64,000 nt of DNA, from assembly GCF_020092905.1 (NCBI RefSeq), contig NZ_JAGSGB010000001.1, forward strand, positions 248,001-312,000. The letters run 5' to 3'. The notes below the pieces were generated by a model. It was not told where the DNA came from. It made no database searches and was given only the letters and a program-made list of their open reading frames with translations. Every line of letters starts with the position of its first letter. Within the stretch, counting starts at the first letter, position 1. Shown one piece after another: positions 3,256-12,658 of this stretch. The position numbers and the translations under genes were made by a program. The DNA is from Pacificimonas aurantium. GTDB taxonomy: Bacteria; Pseudomonadota; Alphaproteobacteria; Sphingomonadales; Sphingomonadaceae.

Positions 3256-3297
3256 GCGTTGGGCCTATATGATCCGCACTCGCGACTGGAGACACGT

Positions 3298-4755
<1,458 letters not shown>

Positions 4756-4865: not shown

Positions 4866-5372
4866 ATGGCAGTTGTAATGAGGCTTTCCCGGGGCGGCGC
4901 GAAGAAGCGGCCCTTCTACAAGATCGTCGTGGCCGACAAGCGCGCCCCGCGCGACGGCAAATATCTGGAGCGTCTGGGCAGCTACAACCCGCTCCTTCCG
5001 AAGGATCACGAGGACCGCGTGAAGCTCGACGCCGAGCGTGCCAAGCACTGGCTCGACCACGGCGCCGTGCCCTCGGACCGCGTGTCCCGCTTTCTCGACG
5101 CCGCCGGCCTGATGGAACGCAAGGCGCGCAACAACCCGAACAAGGCCGAGCCGGGCGACAAGGCGAAGGAACGCGCCGAAGAGAAGGCCGCCAAGGAAGC
5201 CGAGCGCAAGGAAGCCGAAGAGGCCGCGAAGGCCGAAGCCGAAGCGGCCCCCGCTGAGGAAGCACCCGCCGAGGAGGCATCCGCTGAAGAGGCTCCGGCA
5301 GAAGAGGCCGCTTCCGAGGAGGCGCCTGCCGCCGAAGCCGAAGCCGACGCCGACGCCGAAAAGACGGAATAA
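4866..5372 (+). CDS. rpsP: 30S ribosomal protein S16 with long Ala/Glu tail
   Basis: Small-subunit ribosomal protein needed for 30S assembly. Residues 1-85 or so are a standard S16 ([24 protein letters not shown]). The remaining approximately 83 residues are a low-complexity tail made almost only of Ala, Glu, Lys and later Asp, with repeated AEEAPAEE-type units and the end DAEKTE. S16 is usually 75-90 residues, so the tail doubles the protein; alphaproteobacterial S16 proteins often have shorter extensions of this kind. The ATG at 4866 is preceded by an AAGGAAG ribosome-binding site. Second gene of the SRP/translation block. The tail is predicted to be disordered or helical and strongly acidic. 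Confidence 0.96.
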
Positions 5373-5414
5373 GCGCGTGCCGTTTGCCGCCCTGAACCTG
5401 CTTCAGGGCCGCGC

Positions 5415-5921
5415 ATGAGCGGCGCAACCAACGACCCGCCCGTCACTCTGGCCGCCATTGCGGGCGCGCATGGGGTGACGGGCGAGGTGCGTCTGAAGCT
5501 CTTCGCCGAGAGCCTCGACAGCCTGAAGCGCCACGGCCGCTTCGACGCCGGCGGGCGTCCGCTGCGCCTGAAATCGCTCAAACAGTCGGGCAAGTGGATC
5601 GTCGCCCGTTTCGAGGGCGTCGGCGACCGCAACGCCGCCGAGGCGCTGCGCGGCACACCCCTCACCGTTCCCCGCTCCGCCCTCCCCGAACCCGGCGACG
5701 ATGAAATCTACGTCGCCGACCTTGTGGGCCGCCCCGCCTTCTCCGCCGCCGGCGCAGAGCTGGGCCGCGTCGTGGCCGTCGAGAATTTCGGCGCCAGCGA
5801 CATCTTGGAAATCGAACGTCCGGAGGGCGGCCGCTTCATGGTGCCCTTCACGGCGGAGGCCGTACCGCAGCTCGATCCCGATCTCCTCATCGCCGACGAA
5901 TTCGTGGAGGGCCTTGGCTAA
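5415..5921 (+). CDS. rimM: Ribosome maturation factor
   Basis: Assists maturation of the 30S head by binding S19 and the 16S 3' domain. The protein has 168 residues, standard for the family. The N-terminal RimM barrel starts ITLA-like with AAIAGAHGVTGEVRL, and the C-terminal PRC-barrel-like part carries DDEIYVADLVG and the end DLLIADEFVEGLG. It lies 42 bp after rpsP on the same strand, the usual order, but trmD does not follow directly: about 5.5 kb of other genes intervene. Confidence 0.95.
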   Translation: MSGATNDPPVTLAAIAGAHGVTGEVRLKLFAESLDSLKRHGRFDAGGRPLRLKSLKQSGKWIVARFEGVGDRNAAEALRGTPLTVPRSALPEPGDDEIYVADLVGRPAFSAAGAELGRVVAVENFGASDILEIERPEGGRFMVPFTAEAVPQLDPDLLIADEFVEGLG

Positions 5922-5983
5922 GCCGGCAGTCCCCTCTGCGCGCCCGATGAAACAAGCGCCCGTTCGCCCGTGTTGACCCGGGC

Positions 5984-6718
5984 ATGATAACGAGAGCGCT
6001 TCCCCTCATTCTCCCCGCCCTTCTCATGTCCGCCTGTAGCGGCGGTAGCAGCGGGGGCGGCGACGCGCCCGCTCCCGACAACGGGGCCCAAGCTCCCTCT
6101 TCGCCACCCTCTTCACCTGCTGCCGGGACGCGCCCTGCCGGCGAGCCGCAGAATGTCGTCACGGTGGAAGGACGGATCGGCGAGGGGGTCGAATGCCCCG
6201 TCATCGAAACGCCGGACGGCCTTACCTACGCCCTCAGTCTGGCCGAAGCGGACGTCGGCCCCGGCGACTATGTGCAGGTGAACGGCGAACTCGCCGACGC
6301 CTCTTTCTGCATGCAGGGCGAGGGGACGATCATCCCCATCCGGATCGATCAGGTAGATCCCCCGGCCCGTGACCGCGATCCCGCTCGCAGCGGGGGCACG
6401 CGCATCACCACCTCCTATGTGGAGGGGCCCTGGGCTGCGAAGGGGGAAGGCGACTGCCGCAAACCCGATTTCGACATCACGACGAACGAAAATGGCGGCA
6501 GCATCATCGAGACCAGCGTCCGCGGTGTGCCGTCCACCGGCTATGTCGATGTGGGTCCGGACCCCTCCTTCAATTTCGACGCACCCGTCCCGCCGCTGCC
6601 CATCGAATCGCGGGGGCCCGACGGTCTCGCGGTCATGGCGCCGGACGGCGAAAGCATCGAGTTCGCGCAGTACACGCTTCGGGGTGACGGCATGGTGTTC
6701 GTGAAATGCCCCGGCTGA
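5984..6718 (+). CDS. Two-domain lipoprotein, DUF5818-like N-terminal part
   Basis: Predicted outer-membrane or periplasmic lipoprotein of 244 residues with the lipobox LMSAC (Cys18) followed by a Gly/Ser-rich linker. Residues about 50-120 (VVTVEGRIGEGVECPVI...GDYVQVNGEL) look like an OB-type DUF5818 domain. Residues about 140-244 form a second unit beginning GPWAAKGEGDCRKPDF and ending GDGMVFVKCPG, which is repeated as the whole mature part of the next gene. Two conserved cysteines frame this unit and may pair. The next gene overlaps by 13 bp. Function unknown. Confidence 0.8.
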   Translation: MITRALPLILPALLMSACSGGSSGGGDAPAPDNGAQAPSSPPSSPAAGTRPAGEPQNVVTVEGRIGEGVECPVIETPDGLTYALSLAEADVGPGDYVQVNGELADASFCMQGEGTIIPIRIDQVDPPARDRDPARSGGTRITTSYVEGPWAAKGEGDCRKPDFDITTNENGGSIIETSVRGVPSTGYVDVGPDPSFNFDAPVPPLPIESRGPDGLAVMAPDGESIEFAQYTLRGDGMVFVKCPG

Positions 6719-7149
6719 TCTTCCAGCGCGCGGCGCTTCCGGCGCTGCTGCTCATGGCTGCCTGCAGCGAGGAGACCATCGAGGCGCCTGAAATGGAGCA
6801 GCCCGAGACGGCCGGCTTCGTCGGCATCTCCGAGCTCGGCGGCGAGGCACCGCTGGGTGCCTGGGCAACCGAGGGCGGCGATTGCACCGCGCCCGACTTC
6901 CGCATCTCCGACGATGGCGGTGAGCGTCCGGCCGTCGAGGCGGAGTTCAACGGTTGGGACCGCACCGGCCGCCTGCGCAGCGCGGACTCGGTCATTCGCT
7001 TCGTCGACCCGACCAAGAACCTGCCCATCGCGCTTGAAGACGGGGGCCTCAGGGTCTTCCCCCCGCCCGACGGCCTCGCCGTTCTCGGCAGCCGCAACCT
7101 GTTCGAAGAGGGCGTCCTGTTCCGCAAGTGCGCCGAAGCCGCCGACTGA
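6706..7149 (+). CDS. Small lipoprotein, paralogue of the C-terminal half of the preceding lipoprotein
   Basis: A 147-residue predicted lipoprotein with lipobox LMAAC and a short acidic linker. The mature region starts LGAWATEGGDCTAPDF and ends EGVLFRKCAEAAD; both landmarks, and PDGLAV between them, match the second half of the upstream gene, so the two arose by duplication of a domain with two cysteines. It overlaps that gene by 13 bp and is surely co-translated. The family is not one I can name. Confidence 0.8.
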   Translation: MPRLIFQRAALPALLLMAACSEETIEAPEMEQPETAGFVGISELGGEAPLGAWATEGGDCTAPDFRISDDGGERPAVEAEFNGWDRTGRLRSADSVIRFVDPTKNLPIALEDGGLRVFPPPDGLAVLGSRNLFEEGVLFRKCAEAAD

Positions 7150-7291
7150 GGCAAGGTGTCGGCAGGTTTTACAACCGGCCGCCCGGATGTGCGCATCCCC
7201 GCCTCAGCGCGCGCTCGGCCTCGGAATGGGCGCGCCGTTACGAGCTGTGCGGGCCCAGGCACGCGGCTGGCGACGGCCTCTGCAATGGGCT

Positions 7292-7762
7292 ATGGCTGCG
7301 GCCATGGCCCGCGGCGCGCGCACTCTGGACACGGTCGGCTGGGCCGAGCTTGTGGCTCTTCCCGACCTCGACATTCCCTTCGTCCGCGCAAAGGTCGATA
7401 CCGGCGCGCGCACCTCCGCACTTCATGCCATCCGCCTGCACCATTTCGAGAAGGACGGGCGCGAATGGGTACGCTTCACCGTCCCCGCCAGGAAGGGCCG
7501 CTCGAAGCACCGGGTGGAAGCGCCGCTCGCCGGCATCAAGAAGGTCAGGAGCTCGAACGGCGAAACGCAGAAACGCTTCGTCATCCGCACGCGTTTCGTC
7601 ATTGGCGGGAAGCGGTTCCGCGCCGAAGTCACGCTCTCCAACCGCTCGCAAATGGGCTATGCGATGCTGGTGGGAAGGACGGCGCTCAAAAACCGGTTCC
7701 TGGTCGATGTATCGCACGCCTACATGCAGGGCGACACGCCGCCCGAAGGAAGCAAGTCATGA
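7292..7762 (+). CDS. Retropepsin-like aspartic protease of the RimB / ATP-dependent zinc protease type (PF05618)
   Basis: About 156 residues. The active-site signature [13 protein letters not shown] is at residues 34-46 with Asp36 as the predicted catalytic residue; [14 protein letters not shown] and [15 protein letters not shown] are the other conserved stretches of PF05618. In Pseudomonas the homologue RimB is reported to trim the poly-glutamate tail that RimK adds to S6. Its stop overlaps the rimK start as ATGA, so the two form a tight pair. The start is uncertain: 7292 and 7304 are both in frame, neither has a clear ribosome-binding site, and the frame is open further upstream. Confidence 0.85.
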
Positions 7763-8664
7763 AACTGCTGATGCTGGCGCGCAATCCGCGCCTTTATTCC
7801 CACAAGCGGCTCGTCGAGGCTGCGGAGGCGCGCGGGCACACGCTCGACATCGTCAACACGCTGCGCGTCTACATGAACATCACCTCGCACCGGCCGCAGG
7901 CCTATTATGACGGCCAACCCTTGTCGGGTTATGACGCGGTCATTCCGCGCATCGGCGCGTCCATCACCCATTACGGCCTCGCCGTCCTGCGCCAGTTCGA
8001 GATGATGGGCGTCTGGCCGTTGAACGAAAGCGTCGCGATCGGTCGCAGCCGCGACAAGCTGCGCTCGCTGCAGATTCTCGCCCGCGCCGGCCTCGGCCTT
8101 CCCGTCACCGCCTTTGCCTATGATCCCAAACAGACTGACAAGGTGCTGGAAATCGCCGGCGGCGCCCCTGTGGTCATCAAGCTGCTCGAGGGGACGCAGG
8201 GCATCGGTGTCGTGCTGGGGGAAACGGAAAAGTCCGCCCGCTCCGTCATCGAGGCGTTCCGGGGCGCCAACGTCTCCGTGCTCGTGCAGGAGTTCATCAA
8301 GGAGGCGGGCGCGACCGACCTTCGCTGCTTCGTCGTCGGCGGAAAGGTCGTCGGCACCATGATGCGCACCGGCGCGGAGGGCGACTTCCGTTCCAACCTC
8401 CATCGCGGCGGCAGCGCCAAGACGGTGAAGATTACGCCGGTCGAGCGCGAGACCGCCGTGCGCGCCGCGCGCAAGATGGGGCTCAACGTCTGCGGCGTCG
8501 ACATGCTGCGTTCGAACCACGGTCCGGTCATCATGGAGGTCAATTCCTCGCCCGGGCTCGAGGGGATTGAGAATGCCACCGGCAAGGACATCGCCGGCCA
8601 GATCATCGATTATATCGCGGCCAACGCGAAGGCGGGCGCGACCAAGACCAAGGGGTCGGGGTGA
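7759..8664 (+). CDS. rimK: Ribosomal protein S6--L-glutamate ligase
   Basis: ATP-grasp ligase that adds glutamate residues to the C-terminus of ribosomal protein S6 in enterobacteria and pseudomonads. From the ATG at 7759 it has 301 residues, the same size as E. coli RimK. Landmarks are [21 protein letters not shown], the ATP-grasp loop [16 protein letters not shown] and the metal-binding C-terminal [14 protein letters not shown]. It overlaps the RimB-like protease gene by 4 bp. Its true substrate here is not proven; S16, encoded 2.4 kb upstream, has a glutamate-rich tail and ends in Glu. Confidence 0.92.
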
Positions 8665-8770
8665 TGTCGGCCTTGGTCCCAGACCAGAATGTCGTCGGGC
8701 GATCAGGGAACGTTCCCCGATAGACGGTCAGGATCGCGGCTGCGATCATCGTTTGGGGGAGGAGCCTTTG

Positions 8771-9124
8771 ATGACCCCGAAACAGCTCGTTGAACTCTGG
8801 GTGGACCGTTTCAATGCCGCCGATGTGGAGGGTCTTGCCCAACTCTACCATGAAGACGCCGTGAATCATCAGGTGGTACAGGACCCTGCCCGCGGGCGCA
8901 CGGCGATAGCCGGGATGTTCGCCCGCGAGATGGCCGCTGCAAAGATGGTTTGCCAGATAGAGGCTATTCACGAAGCGGGCGACGTCGCCATCCTCGAATG
9001 GAGCGATCCGCTCGGCCTGCGCGGCTGCGGCTTCTTCACCGTCAGGGACGGTCGGATACAGTTTCAGCGGGGTTATTTCGACCGGCTGACCTTCCTCAGA
9101 CTGCACGGCCTTCCGGTCGAATAG
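8771..9124 (+). CDS. NTF2-like / SnoaL-type small protein
   Basis: A 117-residue protein starting MTPKQLVELWVDRFNAADVEGLAQLYHEDAVNH, the typical first helix and strand of SnoaL/NTF2-like folds, and ending in beta strands (GCGFFTVRDGRIQFQRGYFDR). Such proteins form cone-shaped pockets and act as isomerases, hydratases or binding proteins. The ATG at 8771 has GGGGGAGGAG upstream. It stands 106 bp after rimK on the same strand and is the last plus-strand gene before the convergent diguanylate cyclase. Substrate unknown. Confidence 0.75.
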   Translation: MTPKQLVELWVDRFNAADVEGLAQLYHEDAVNHQVVQDPARGRTAIAGMFAREMAAAKMVCQIEAIHEAGDVAILEWSDPLGLRGCGFFTVRDGRIQFQRGYFDRLTFLRLHGLPVE

Positions 9125-9163
9125 GCCGTCGGCCCATGTCCGCGGTTGGCGCGGGGGTATATG

Positions 9164-10564
9164 CTACGCAGCGGCGGTCAGGCGGCGCGCGGGCCGAACT
9201 TCGGCGGCTGGGGCGGCGCCGGCATCCGCAAGGGTCTCGGTCGCCGCCAGCGGGTCCGTGCCGCTATCCTTCAGGGCGAAGACGCAGCGGTCCCGTCCCG
9301 CGGCCTTGGCGAGGTAGAGGCACTCGTCGGCGCGTTTCAGGATCGCCGCAAAGGGCTCGTCCGGCTCGGGCCAGGCGATGCCCAGGCTGGCGGTAACGCT
9401 GTGCTCTACCTCGGGCACCGCATCGCGAATGGTCCGCGGAAGACGCGCGCGCAGCCGTTCGGCCGTTCCGCGCACGTCCTCGCCGTAAAAGAACAGCGCG
9501 AACTCTTCTCCGCCCAGACGCGCGGCGAAGCAGCCCGGATGCCAGCTCATCGCGCGCGCGGCGGCGACGAGGACGTCGTCCCCGACATCATGGCCGTAGC
9601 CGTCGTTCACCCGCTTGAAATGGTCGAGGTCGAGGATCGCGACGGCGGTCAGGCTGGCGGCGCCCTGCGCATATTCCGCTTCCAGTCCGCGCCGGTTCGC
9701 AAGGCCTGTCAGCGGATCGGACAACGCCGCGCTGCGCATCGCGCTCGCTTCCGCAAGCCCCCGGTCGCGGTCGAGCTTCAGTGTCATGAAGCGATCCGAG
9801 ACACCCATGGCGCCGACCACGATCTCCACGGTCAGCGCCGCGAAGATCAGCGGAATGAAGGCGAGAAAGGAGTCGCCGAGGACCAGGTCGTGATACAGGC
9901 TGATGGCGCAGACGGCGAAAACGCCCGTCCAGGCCGCCGCCTGATAGCGCGCCGCCCGGCTTCCCCGGCGTAGCGCGCCCCCCAGCGCCCAGACCAGCAG
10001 GCCCAGGATCAGGCAGAGGATCACGGTCCGAAACGCGAAATAGCCGGGAATATCCGGCACCAGCATGGCCGGGGTGGTCAGCAGCGTGGCGGGAAACGTC
10101 CAGCCGAGCAGCCGGTGGGTCCGCGGCCCGATGGTGCCGGGCTCGAGATAGCTGCGCAGGAAGGGGCCGGAGGCGGCGATGGCAAGGTCGAAGCCCAGGT
10201 TGAGGATGATCGCATGGACAAGTGTCCCTGCCGCGACGACCGGCGCCAGGTCGAGGGGGGCATGCCCCAGGACCAGCGTCACGATGCCGAGCGCGCGCAG
10301 GCTGTGCCACAGCAGGAACCGCTCTTTCAGCACATGATAGGAGCTGAGGTTATAGGCGATCGGAAACAGGGTTATGCCGATGAAGATACCGGTGACGACC
10401 GCCAGCCAGTCCAGCCGCGCGGTTTCCACCCGCACATGATCGCCGAAACTGACGGCCATCTGGGCGGCAGCGGGCGAGTCGGCGAGCAGCACGACCGCGA
10501 CAACCGCCAGTGCCCCGCCGACGTCGCCTCCCGGCCCCGCTCTCCATGCCCCAATTAGACCCAT
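9164..10564 (-). CDS. Membrane-bound diguanylate cyclase (GGDEF)
   Basis: Makes cyclic di-GMP from two GTP. About 466 residues: a hydrophobic segment at the N-terminus, then six to eight membrane helices (about 50-255) like a 7TM sensory module, then a GGDEF domain with LSDPLTGLANRRG, DLDHFKRVNDGYGHDVGD and the active-site loop GGEEF at 351-355. The RxxD inhibitory site normally five residues before GGEEF is absent; that position reads HPGC, so product inhibition may be lost. Start: the first in-frame codon is TTG at 10585, the ATG at 10564 looks better, but neither has a good ribosome-binding site. It faces the NTF2-like gene with a 39-bp gap. Confidence 0.9.
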   Translation of the reverse strand: MGLIGAWRAGPGGDVGGALAVVAVVLLADSPAAAQMAVSFGDHVRVETARLDWLAVVTGIFIGITLFPIAYNLSSYHVLKERFLLWHSLRALGIVTLVLGHAPLDLAPVVAAGTLVHAIILNLGFDLAIAASGPFLRSYLEPGTIGPRTHRLLGWTFPATLLTTPAMLVPDIPGYFAFRTVILCLILGLLVWALGGALRRGSRAARYQAAAWTGVFAVCAISLYHDLVLGDSFLAFIPLIFAALTVEIVVGAMGVSDRFMTLKLDRDRGLAEASAMRSAALSDPLTGLANRRGLEAEYAQGAASLTAVAILDLDHFKRVNDGYGHDVGDDVLVAAARAMSWHPGCFAARLGGEEFALFFYGEDVRGTAERLRARLPRTIRDAVPEVEHSVTASLGIAWPEPDEPFAAILKRADECLYLAKAAGRDRCVFALKDSGTDPLAATETLADAGAAPAAEVRPARRLTAAA

Positions 10565-10673
10565 GTTAGTTTTGTACGGCGCCAATCGGAAAGGAATGGT
10601 TACCTTGGATCTCTACGAAACGCGGGTGCCAGACAGGCCGCAGATCGTCGCCAAGGGCCCGGCCGCAGCGGAC

Positions 10674-10692
10674 CTGTCGAGATTCTTGACAG
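10674..10692. promoter_or_regulatory. Inverted repeat, candidate activator site for the PEP-CTERM gene
   Basis: CTGTC (10674-10678) and GACAG (10688-10692) are perfect inverted half-sites with a 9-bp centre. The pair lies about 55-70 bp upstream of the -24 element of a sigma-54-type promoter, where an enhancer-binding protein such as PrsR could act. Inference from position only. Confidence 0.3.
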
Positions 10693-10743
10693 AGTTTCGC
10701 GCGCGGCCTTCAAATAATGCTGATTCCTAGGCCGTTATACTCC

Positions 10744-10759
10744 CGGCACCCTTCTTGCA
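10744..10759 (+). promoter_or_regulatory. Sigma-54 (-24/-12) type promoter of the first PEP-CTERM gene
   Basis: CGGCACC-CTTC-TTGCA matches the consensus TGGCACG-N4-TTGCA at all core positions: GG at 10745-10746 and GC at 10757-10758 are exactly 10 bases apart. Transcription would start near 10770 and give a leader of about 57 nt before the ATG at 10827. The same type of element precedes the second PEP-CTERM gene at 61684-61699. Confidence 0.7.
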
Positions 10760-10826
10760 TTGCACAGCTTTTGCGCATCTCGGCGCCTGTCTGCGGTCAT
10801 GAATCGCGGTTTTTTGAAGGGTGGTC

Positions 10827-11420
10827 ATGCTTAAACCTGTCCTTGCCTTTGCGGCGGCCCTCACCGCAGCCACGGCCCAGGCGGTCCCGATTACCTTTGA
10901 CGAGGTGCCTGCCTCCACTCCGGGCGATTTCACGATTGGCGCGTATCGCTTCGACGTGGTCCTCGATGGGGTTCCCGGGCCGATCACCACCAGCCTGGGC
11001 AACAGTTCACCCGCGCTTGGGTTCTACGAATTCGATGGAGAGATCGGCCTGTACGTCACCATCACGCGTACTGACGGAGCCGGATTTTATTTCAGACAGG
11101 CGGACTTTCACAGCGACTTCCTCCAGCAGCCCGACGGGACCCGGTTCTACTATGTCGGCATGGAGGGTGGGTTCGACTCTTTGTCGCTCCCCGACAATAC
11201 GGAAGGCGCGTTCATCCCGGTTCTGGGCAATGGAGAATTGCTTCGCGAACTGCGGCTCGAACTCTACGCGCCGGAAGCGCCCCAGTTCGACAATGGCCGC
11301 TCGGTCGTCCTCGTCGACAATCTGGTTCTCGAAAGCCCCGCCGACGTTCCGGCACCCGCCGCTCTGGGCCTCCTCGGCATCGGCGTCGCGGCCATGGGAC
11401 TTCGCCGCCGCACCGATTGA
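10827..11420 (+). CDS. PEP-CTERM sorting domain-containing secreted protein
   Basis: A 197-residue exported protein. It has a signal peptide (MLKPVLAFAAALTAATAQA) and a C-terminal sorting signal VPAPAALGLLGIGVAAMGLR followed by RRTD: the VPAP motif, a hydrophobic helix and a basic end, as recognised by exosortase. The middle has no recognised domain and is rich in acidic and aromatic residues. I chose ATG 10827 (GAAGGG upstream) over the GTG six bases earlier. No exosortase gene lies in the window. It sits between the diguanylate cyclase and trmD but has its own sigma-54-type promoter, so it is probably not part of the ribosomal operon. Confidence 0.85.
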   Translation: MLKPVLAFAAALTAATAQAVPITFDEVPASTPGDFTIGAYRFDVVLDGVPGPITTSLGNSSPALGFYEFDGEIGLYVTITRTDGAGFYFRQADFHSDFLQQPDGTRFYYVGMEGGFDSLSLPDNTEGAFIPVLGNGELLRELRLELYAPEAPQFDNGRSVVLVDNLVLESPADVPAPAALGLLGIGVAAMGLRRRTD

Positions 11421-11453
11421 CCGCGGCGCCGCGCGCGGCATAGGCCGCAGGGC

Positions 11454-12203
11454 ATGACCTTCGCCGCGACCGTCCTTACCCTCTATCCGGACATGTTCCC
11501 GGGGCCGCTCGGTCAGTCGATGGCAGGACGCGCGCTGGGTGACGGTCTCTGGTCGCTCGACACGGTGCAGATCCGCGACTTCGCCGAGGGCCGGCACCGC
11601 AATGTCGACGACACCCCCGCGGGCGGCGGCGCGGGCATGGTGATGCGCGCCGATGTCCTCGCCCGGGCCTGCGACCATGCACTCGCCGCGCGGCCGCAGG
11701 CACCGCTTCTCTACATGAGCCCGCGCGGCGCGCCGCTGACGCAGCACCGGGTGCGCACGCTCGCCGCGGGGCCCGGCGTCTCCCTTCTCTGCGGCCGGTT
11801 CGAGGGGGTGGACCAGCGCCTTCTGGACGCCCGCCCGATTGAAGAGGTGTCGGTCGGCGACTACATCCTGTCGGGCGGCGAGATGGCGGCGCTGGTGCTC
11901 CTCGACGCTTGCATTCGGCTCGTACCCGGCGTAATGGGCGCGGCCGCGAGTGGTGAGGACGAATCGTTCGAAAACGGGCTCCTCGAATACCCACAATATA
12001 CCCGCCCTTCCGAATGGGAGGGCCGCACGGTCCCTGAAGTGCTGCGATCGGGGGATCATGCGCGCATTTCGGCATGGCGCCAGCGCCAGTCGGAAGAGCA
12101 GACACGGCTACGGAGGCCGGACCTTTGGGAGCGCCATACCGGCGCTCGGGCCCAGTCTCCCTCTGGTGCGCGGCGAGAGAAGCAAGAGGAGGACGAGGCA
12201 TGA
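11454..12203 (+). CDS. trmD: tRNA (guanine-N1)-methyltransferase
   Basis: Methylates G37 of tRNAs with a G at position 36, using S-adenosylmethionine bound in a trefoil knot. The protein has 249 residues. Landmarks are [54 protein letters not shown] and the C-terminal EYPQYTRP. It starts only 33 bp after the PEP-CTERM gene, and its stop overlaps the rplS start (ATGA). In most proteobacteria it follows rimM directly; here the two are 5.5 kb apart. Confidence 0.96.
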
Positions 12204-12658
12204 ACCTCATCCAGCAGATCGAGGCGGAACAGGTAGAGAAGTTCGCCGCCACGAAGGACATTCCGGAATTCCGCGCCGGCGACACGGTCCGCGTGGGCGT
12301 ACGCGTTGTCGAAGGCACGCGTGAGCGCATCCAGTATTTCGAGGGCGTCGTCATCGCCCGCTCCAACAAGGGCATCAGCTCCAACTTCACCGTCCGCAAG
12401 GTTTCCTTCGGTGAGGGTGTCGAGCGCGTCTTCCCGCTTTACGGCCCCAATGTTGCCTCGATCGAGTTGAAGCGCCGCGGTGTCGTGCGCCGTGCGAAGC
12501 TCTACTATCTGCGTGGCCGCTCGGGTAAGTCGGCGCGTATCGCCGAGCGCCGCTATACCGGCCCGACCGAGGCGACGCAGGGCAGCCCGGTGCCCGACGC
12601 CAGCGCCACCGAAGCCGAGAAGCAGGAAGCTGTCGAAGAGATCAAGTCCGAGGACTGA
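12200..12658 (+). CDS. rplS: 50S ribosomal protein L19
   Basis: Large-subunit protein at the 30S-50S interface. From ATG 12200 it has 152 residues: [46 protein letters not shown] and [10 protein letters not shown] are typical. The last about 35 residues are an Ala/Glu-rich extension beyond the usual length of about 115-120, like the tail of S16 in the same block. The start lies inside the end of trmD with AGAGGAGG upstream. A terminator follows at 12693-12728. Confidence 0.96.

Follow-up and report, generated by a model that had tools for sequence, protein, structure and literature searches.

The rimB-rimK locus of Pacificimonas aurantium

The DNA analysed here (the window) is a stretch of 64,000 nucleotides from Pacificimonas aurantium (Sphingomonadales; Sphingomonadaceae; assembly GCF_020092905.1, contig NZ_JAGSGB010000001.1, positions 248,001–312,000 of the forward strand), and the subject of this report is a pair of overlapping genes within it, rimB and rimK, together with the genes around them. 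The first gene, rimB (7292..7762, plus strand), encodes a 156-amino-acid, RimB-type retropepsin-like aspartic endopeptidase with the catalytic motif VDTGARTS (D36); the second, rimK (7759..8664, plus strand), encodes a 301-amino-acid RimK-type alpha-L-glutamate ligase with an ATP-grasp domain. The two genes overlap by 4 bp, which read ATGA in the window sequence. Downstream lie a gene for a 117-amino-acid protein of the SnoaL_2/NTF2 fold (8771..9124, plus strand; PF12680, 57.5 bits) and, in convergent orientation, a gene for a 466-amino-acid protein consisting of a 7TMR-DISM_7TM region and a GGDEF domain (9164..10564, minus strand; PF07695, 51 bits; PF00990, 95.8 bits). An earlier note on this DNA had read these four genes—a PF05618 protease overlapping rimK, an NTF2-like gene, and a convergent diguanylate cyclase—as a local ribosome-modification module that is sensitive to cyclic dimeric guanosine monophosphate (cyclic di-GMP) and linked to ribosome biogenesis by its operon position. 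Profile matches bear out all four genes, positions included.

The analysis argues strongly for a narrower reading: positions 7292–8664 very probably constitute a two-gene RimB-RimK unit—a ligase and a trimming protease—kept together as a pair across the order, and with neighbours that are local. Published work is cited below by PubMed Central (PMC) number.

RimK and RimB belong to known enzyme families

In profile searches, the window RimK matches the RimK N-terminal and ATP-grasp domains. It scores 411.7 bits over positions 1–294 on NF007764 (S6--L-glutamate ligase; curated cut-off 331), and is thus a member of that family. Its closest PDB entries are 7qyr, whose annotation reads probable alpha-L-glutamate ligase, and 7qys; the alignment with 7qyr runs from end to end without gaps, with 206 of 301 residues identical (455 bits), while the score against E. 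coli RimK (PDB 4iwx, 5zct), which belongs to the same S6--L-glutamate ligase family, is lower (368 bits). Both 7qyr and 7qys are presumably the structures of Pseudomonas RimK that PMC10092738 describes. That paper names seven poly-glutamate-binding residues of Pseudomonas RimK (S7, R8, S14, R64, S68, R189 and N262), of which the window RimK keeps six: R8, S14, R64, S68, R189 and N262. Three of the four ATP-site residues named there also match; the fourth, position 141, is given as Leu, yet 7qyr and the window RimK both have Lys there.

The evidence for RimB is of two kinds. Firstly, the protein scores 127.4 bits on PF05618 (cut-off 27), and its VDTGA motif carries the catalytic Asp. Residues D36, T37, G38 and A39 are invariant in 35 aligned sequences (the window protein and 34 of the 45 unfused homologues that remain after G071 and G140, which have no exact DTGA, are excluded from a set of 47). 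Secondly, the AlphaFold model (predicted local distance difference test score 90.5) has as its best structural matches 2pma and Pseudomonas RloA (9g58, 9g59), with E values of 1.2e-11 for both 9g59 and 2pma; HIV-1 protease is a weaker match (E 1.2e-3). On the strength of this model, RimB is predicted to have a retropepsin fold.

The pair is conserved in the order

Among the 147 genomes sampled from the order, 73 contain a PF05618 match and 71 a RimK match (E up to 1e-40). In 70 of the 73 rimB carriers, rimB lies immediately 5' of rimK. There are three exceptions: rimK lies nearby on the opposite strand in G071, while G042 and G002 give no RimK match and carry rimB no more than about 1.2 kb from the end of a contig. 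None of the 71 rimK genomes is without rimB, and in 22 of them the two domains occupy a single, fused frame—the kind of hybrid already published in PMC11957791. In a phylum-wide sample of 120 genomes, both genes were found in 47, rimK only in seven (E up to 1e-60), and PF05618 only in two; the E. coli control genome contains a RimK match and no PF05618 match. The top-scoring RimK of the phylum sample (G183:C91:7949-8842) contains an in-frame TGA, which points to gene decay or to an error in the sequence. On the RimK tree, the window sequence groups with members of its own family alone (support 0.987); three further family members are placed in other parts.

Scores above the curated family cut-offs, catalytic residues, the predicted fold and the pairing together give good support to the identification of a RimB-RimK pair, and to the opposed ligase and protease functions that the earlier note had ascribed to it. 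The synteny that was proposed as a check on the four genes splits in two: it is strongly positive for rimB-rimK alone and negative for the four-gene set at the 72 other rimBK loci of the order. The window rimBK is an ordinary instance of a known enzyme pair, and is new only as a further member.

The neighbouring GGDEF gene is not a conserved companion

The inhibitory site (I-site) of diguanylate cyclases is an RxxD motif five residues before the GGDEF motif. The active site of the minus-strand GGDEF protein reads HPGCFAARLGGEEF: an intact GGEEF, with no RxxD five residues upstream. The description of this protein as a diguanylate cyclase without an RxxD inhibitory site is therefore borne out by its sequence. 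Its gene is convergent with rimK, and so lies outside the rimBK transcript.

We looked for GGDEF genes around the 72 further rimBK loci of the order (flanks of 2.5 kb are complete at 65) and around 80 named loci retrieved with the window's RimK (flanks of 3 kb are complete at 69; 28 of the 80 are taken as Sphingomonadales by name). In both sets the search was a one-sequence phmmer search, which may miss divergent domains, and neighbour counts may lack genes on short contigs. At none of the 72 order loci did the search detect a GGDEF gene within 2.5 kb. The nearest lie 4.7 kb off, in the apparently sister genomes G004 and G018; a relative of the membrane part of the window GGDEF protein, cut by the end of the stretch, lies about 8 kb from rimBK in G025. 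Two of the 80 named loci (L263 and L333) contain a GGDEF gene, a different one in each: a PleD-type gene in L263 and, beyond an AstE-type gene, one for a PAS-GGDEF protein in L333. With 22 GGDEF domains in the P. aurantium genome, chance alone would place about 3.6% of its positions this near to one, and three different GGDEF genes in three arrangements (window, L263 and L333) fit chance. The GGDEF protein is probably a bystander, a chance neighbour. The SnoaL/NTF2-fold gene is likewise a bystander, outside the module: no relatives of it were detected at the 72 other rimBK loci of the order.

The EAL-domain phosphodiesterase RimA, the third member of the Pseudomonas rimABK set, gave no match among the ten window proteins at 4866–12520 (Pfam) or in the protein at 6706–7149 (NCBIfam); EAL genes were not searched for directly in the loci of relatives. 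As for the ligand itself, RimK of P. fluorescens and of E. coli is reported to bind cyclic di-GMP with low micromolar affinity (PMC4741518), and the site is not resolved even in Pseudomonas RimK (PMC10092738). By analogy, direct binding of cyclic di-GMP by the window RimK is possible.

The position between rimM and trmD is not conserved

The rimBK block sits in the gap between rimM (5415..5921, plus strand; TIGR02273, 109.2 bits) and trmD (11454..12203, plus strand; NF000648, 295.3 bits). To the left of rimM lie rpsP (encoding S16; 4866–5372) and a frame taken as ffh (3259–4755), which matches the frame preceding rpsP in relatives; rplS (PF01245, 144.8 bits) lies after trmD. Two genes separate rimM from rimBK: a DUF5818 gene (5984..6718, plus strand; PF19135, 43.6 bits) and a separate gene at 6706–7149. 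On the other side, trmD is separated from rimBK by the SnoaL gene, the convergent GGDEF gene, and a gene for a PEP-CTERM-like protein (10828..11421, plus strand) with the C-terminal sequence VPAPAALGLLGIGVAAMGLRRR, in which the motif was judged by eye; this protein has no Pfam or NCBIfam matches. The placement inside a ribosomal operon that the earlier note had described thus holds in one respect—the block does lie between rimM and trmD—and needs qualifying in another: other genes intervene on both sides, and co-transcription with the ribosomal genes is not indicated. Scans of 5850–11500 yielded nothing usable, giving one promoter-like site (minus strand, 11111; 0.4 in shuffled sequences, standard deviation 0.6) and three terminator-like sites (3.6 in shuffled sequences).

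DUF5818 homologues adjoin rimM in three relatives (G114, G142 and G129), and the DUF5818 gene may have occupied the gap for longer than the window's rimBK.

In 25 genomes of the window's family, trmD and rimB lie on one contig. In 17 of these, rimB lies 5.8–13.9 kb downstream of trmD on the same strand, and in seven it is more than 130 kb away; in the window alone it lies 4.2 kb upstream. Of the named loci, L263 likewise has rimBK upstream of trmD, and it is the single one of the 80 with trmD detected inside the 3-kb flanks. On the other side of its rimBK are divK/pleD-like response-regulator genes, and no rimM was seen in that flank. Linkage to the ribosomal operon was accordingly rejected as a conserved feature: among the loci compared, the position upstream of trmD is common to the window and L263 only.

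In 16 other genomes of the family, rimBK is 2.6–4.9 kb from rpsF, the gene for ribosomal protein S6. However, rpsF and trmD are also no more than 16 kb apart in some genomes that have no rimBK (e.g. G117, G136 and G110). This neighbourhood is therefore probably inherited, and is weak evidence for a functional link.

Two side observations concern trmD and its surroundings. In L263, rimK and trmD have between them a VapBC-like toxin-antitoxin pair (3974–4613), which scores under the curated NCBIfam cut-offs. In G025, G091, G118 and G130, TrmD appears as two match pieces in one open frame, with the break between profile positions about 53 and 61, which suggests a lineage-specific insertion.

An AstE/AspA-type gene recurs beside rimBK in part of the order

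The immediate neighbours of the 72 loci were scanned with Pfam (136 of 141; five longer than 900 amino acids were dropped). The commonest family is PF24827, the AstE/AspA catalytic domain, with 18 of the 136 neighbours against six for the next among the 25 of 103 families considered, a selection that extends down to two members and may hide one- or two-member families. Within 2.5 kb, PF24827 accompanies 21 of 48 paired, eight of nine lone, and two of 22 fused rimK genes of the order; this count used 47 PF24827 matches (strong or near rimK), and any missed one would raise it. Of the 31 PF24827 genes so placed, 26 are on the rimK strand, 25 of them with 150–230 bp between the matched domains. 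The same family occurs in 46 of the 80 named loci (in 43 of the 46, downstream on the same strand), and in only two of the 28 taken as Sphingomonadales. In the window's family it is found near six of 29 paired loci, and the P. aurantium genome contains no PF24827 gene. The single member that was scored on NCBIfam is not a curated AstE or aspartoacylase.

These counts make it likely that the AstE/AspA-type protein is a RimBK partner in part of the order. The literature searched contained no report on bacterial RimK together with AstE/AspA (succinylglutamate desuccinylase, aspartoacylase), and no study of rimB or rimK genes in Sphingomonadales. Six genomes (G015, G020, G026, G027, G031 and G032) contain a fused RimBK and, in addition, a second, lone RimK beside an AstE/AspA-type gene, which suggests two RimK systems side by side.

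S6 tails rarely end in glutamate where rimB is present

Genome-encoded S6 tails were compared in 136 of the 140 order genomes with an S6 match (G023, G082, G085 and G106 were left out). In the phylum sample, 69 tails were compared: 51 of the 54 rimK carriers, one of the two rimB-only genomes, and 17 others, the latter being solely those among the 30 best-scoring S6 matches. This set omits G000 and G012 (which are in the order sample), G215 (no S6 match) and G245 (rimB-only).

In the order, S6 ends in Glu in four of 70 rimB-positive genomes and in 25 of 66 rimB-negative genomes, counts that are not corrected for phylogeny. By genus (taking the majority of its genomes), the figures are 1/37 and 8/25. 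Within the window's family they are 0/30 and 11/34; the other larger families show a weak contrast (0/14 against 1/9 in f5, and 4/12 against 8/17 in f8), and in mixed genera S6 tails show no consistent change with rimBK. A Lys or Arg stands next to last in 31 of 70 rimB-positive and 11 of 66 rimB-negative genomes, while an acidic penultimate residue is about equally frequent in the two (23/70 and 20/66). In the 16 genomes with rimBK near rpsF, 11 S6 tails end in EERD or EERN and none in Glu. The association is treated as a lead—because it is not corrected for phylogeny, comes mostly from the window's family, and is inconsistent in mixed genera—and on these tails S6 may not be the main RimBK target in the order. 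The window's own S6 ends in RSDD, one of six among the 70 rimB-positive tails with two acidic end residues; since it ends in Asp-Asp, it is still a possible target.

Across the phylum, Glu-ended S6 is found in eight of 44 genomes with both genes, four of seven with rimK only, none of one with rimB only, and seven of 17 with neither. A Glu end was rejected as a fingerprint of RimK action on the strength of these counts. Some rimK-only genomes have S6 ending in Glu-Glu, and in one phylum family (f32, guessed to be Pseudomonas-like partly from this very tail, and so no independent control) all four members' S6 end in Asp-Glu, like P. fluorescens RpsF. Two published results bear on these tails: a penultimate Lys (RpsF-D139K) abolished modification by RimK in vitro in P. 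fluorescens (PMC4741518), and RpsF without a Glu end has been remarked on in some bacteria (PMC11957791). The present counts extend the latter remark.

As an alternative target, S16 was also considered. The window S16 ends in AEKTE, and ten tails from the family (the window's and nine others, all from rimB-positive genomes) comprise six ending in Glu, three in Gly and one in Asp. At 168 amino acids, the window S16 has a long, Glu/Ala-rich C-terminal tail beyond the S16 domain; similar tails, differing in their last residue, occur in nine relatives.

Comparison with known systems and interpretation

The nearest described relatives are the Pseudomonas rimBK and rimABK genes (PMC4741518, PMC7343187, PMC10092738, PMC11957791). 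As in the window, rimB there adjoins rimK; catalytic residues are shared, the same opposition of ligase and protease is expected, and the closest RimK structures are 7qyr and 7qys. The window differs in having no rimA among the neighbours scanned, in an S6 that ends in Asp-Asp rather than the Asp-Glu of Pseudomonas, in a RimB under the NCBIfam RimB cut-off, and in the location of the genes in the rimM-trmD gap. The RimBK hybrid of D. psychrophila (PMC11957791) contains the same two domains in the same order, which in the window are separate, overlapping genes; the same paper reports protease activity for the RimBK hybrid, and a distribution of hybrids mostly in Flavobacteriales and Rhodobacterales. 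RloA, of the Pseudomonas RloABC system (PMC12239564), shares the PF05618 retropepsin fold predicted for the window RimB. RloA proteins, however, carry signal peptides and are encoded beside a transglutaminase-like membrane protein, whereas the partner of the window RimB is a true RimK.

By analogy with the Pseudomonas work, the two reactions in P. aurantium can be sketched as follows. The overlapping rimB and rimK would probably be translationally coupled. RimK would ligate L-glutamate, in alpha linkage, onto a protein C-terminus, or would make free poly-alpha-glutamate; RimB, retropepsin-like and expected to be a dimer, would cut poly-glutamate back, and may also modulate RimK. The NTF2-like gene, the GGDEF gene, and the rimM-trmD position are most likely local, with no conserved functional link to the pair.

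Four observations weigh against so plain a reading. One of the seven glutamate-binding residues of RimK, S7, is Ala in the window protein. RimB scores 128.8 bits on NF052261, under the equivalog cut-off of 200 (as does the one fused RimBK of the order scored on this model, at 129.5 bits), and for this reason we call it RimB-type rather than an NCBIfam RimB equivalog. The window RimK is as similar to named Thalassospira sequences (77–79%) as to named Erythrobacter sequences (76–78%), which leaves room for transfer between orders. Lastly, in L263, the nearest named relative (RimK 88% identical), the PleD-type gene shares the strand of rimB and lies 42 bp upstream of it; the PleD-type product scores 442.6 of the 474 bits that the model cut-off demands, and has an RGVD I-site by eye. 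A lineage-specific link to cyclic di-GMP therefore stays possible.

It is on account of L263 that we leave some small probability to the earlier proposal of a local module sensitive to cyclic di-GMP, which the cyclase next to rimBK would supply to RimK. The low-micromolar binding by RimK of P. fluorescens and of E. coli (PMC4741518) and the intact GGEEF of the window protein are also consistent with it, but a GGDEF gene that is off the rimBK transcript, has no counterpart detected within 2.5 kb at the order loci, and is matched in the named loci by two different genes, as fits chance, makes such a module improbable. Inferred from gene order, it was rejected as a conserved feature, and is possible in the lineage of L263. 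Two views of the target are weightier, and both are compatible with the two-gene RimB-RimK unit. It is quite conceivable, if somewhat short of probable, that the pair modifies S6 just as in Pseudomonas and is in this sense a ribosome-modification module: RimK scores over the curated S6--L-glutamate ligase cut-off, both final residues of the window S6 are acidic, and rimBK is near rpsF in the 16 other family genomes. Against this stand the scarcity of Glu ends in rimB-positive genomes and genera, the frequent penultimate Lys or Arg (Lys being the residue that blocks Pseudomonas RimK in vitro, PMC4741518), the EERD and EERN tails of the very genomes in which rpsF is near, and the rpsF-trmD proximity in genomes without rimBK.

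The same S6 tails, mostly without Glu in rimB-positive genomes, can be read as favouring a different, tentatively held view: that in this order RimB and RimK chiefly build and trim poly-glutamate on a substrate other than S6 or as a free peptide, joined in many species by an AstE/AspA-type amidohydrolase, a third gene that the window's lineage lacks. The prominence of PF24827 among the immediate neighbours, in the named loci, and beside paired and lone rimK genes points this way, and the RimBK hybrid showed no activity on Pseudomonas RpsF, while RpsF is not Glu-ended in some bacteria (PMC11957791). This view has to contend with the absence of PF24827 from the P. aurantium genome and from the vicinity of 23 of the 29 paired loci of its family, its rarity in the Sphingomonadales named loci, S6 tails that are inconsistent with rimBK within mixed genera, and a candidate substrate that is itself still hypothetical. 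Put more generally, and as a rather doubtful proposition, the RimB-RimK cycle in the order, and presumably in many other RimBK bacteria, would not serve S6 primarily; its substrate would be another protein or a free peptide, polyglutamylated and trimmed, with an AstE/AspA-type protein as third enzyme in many species. Where RimBK is present, Glu ends of S6 may even be under negative selection.

Few reversible polyglutamylation systems are known in bacteria; RimBK is among them, and the target on which it has been studied is S6. A cyclic di-GMP module would have mattered if true, but it was built on a neighbour that is not conserved. The main interest of the locus lies in what RimBK modifies in the order to which P. 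aurantium belongs. For this order, the survey of S6 tails provides a simple, testable reason to doubt S6 as the target, and the AstE/AspA-type gene that recurs beside rimBK is a concrete candidate for a third component.

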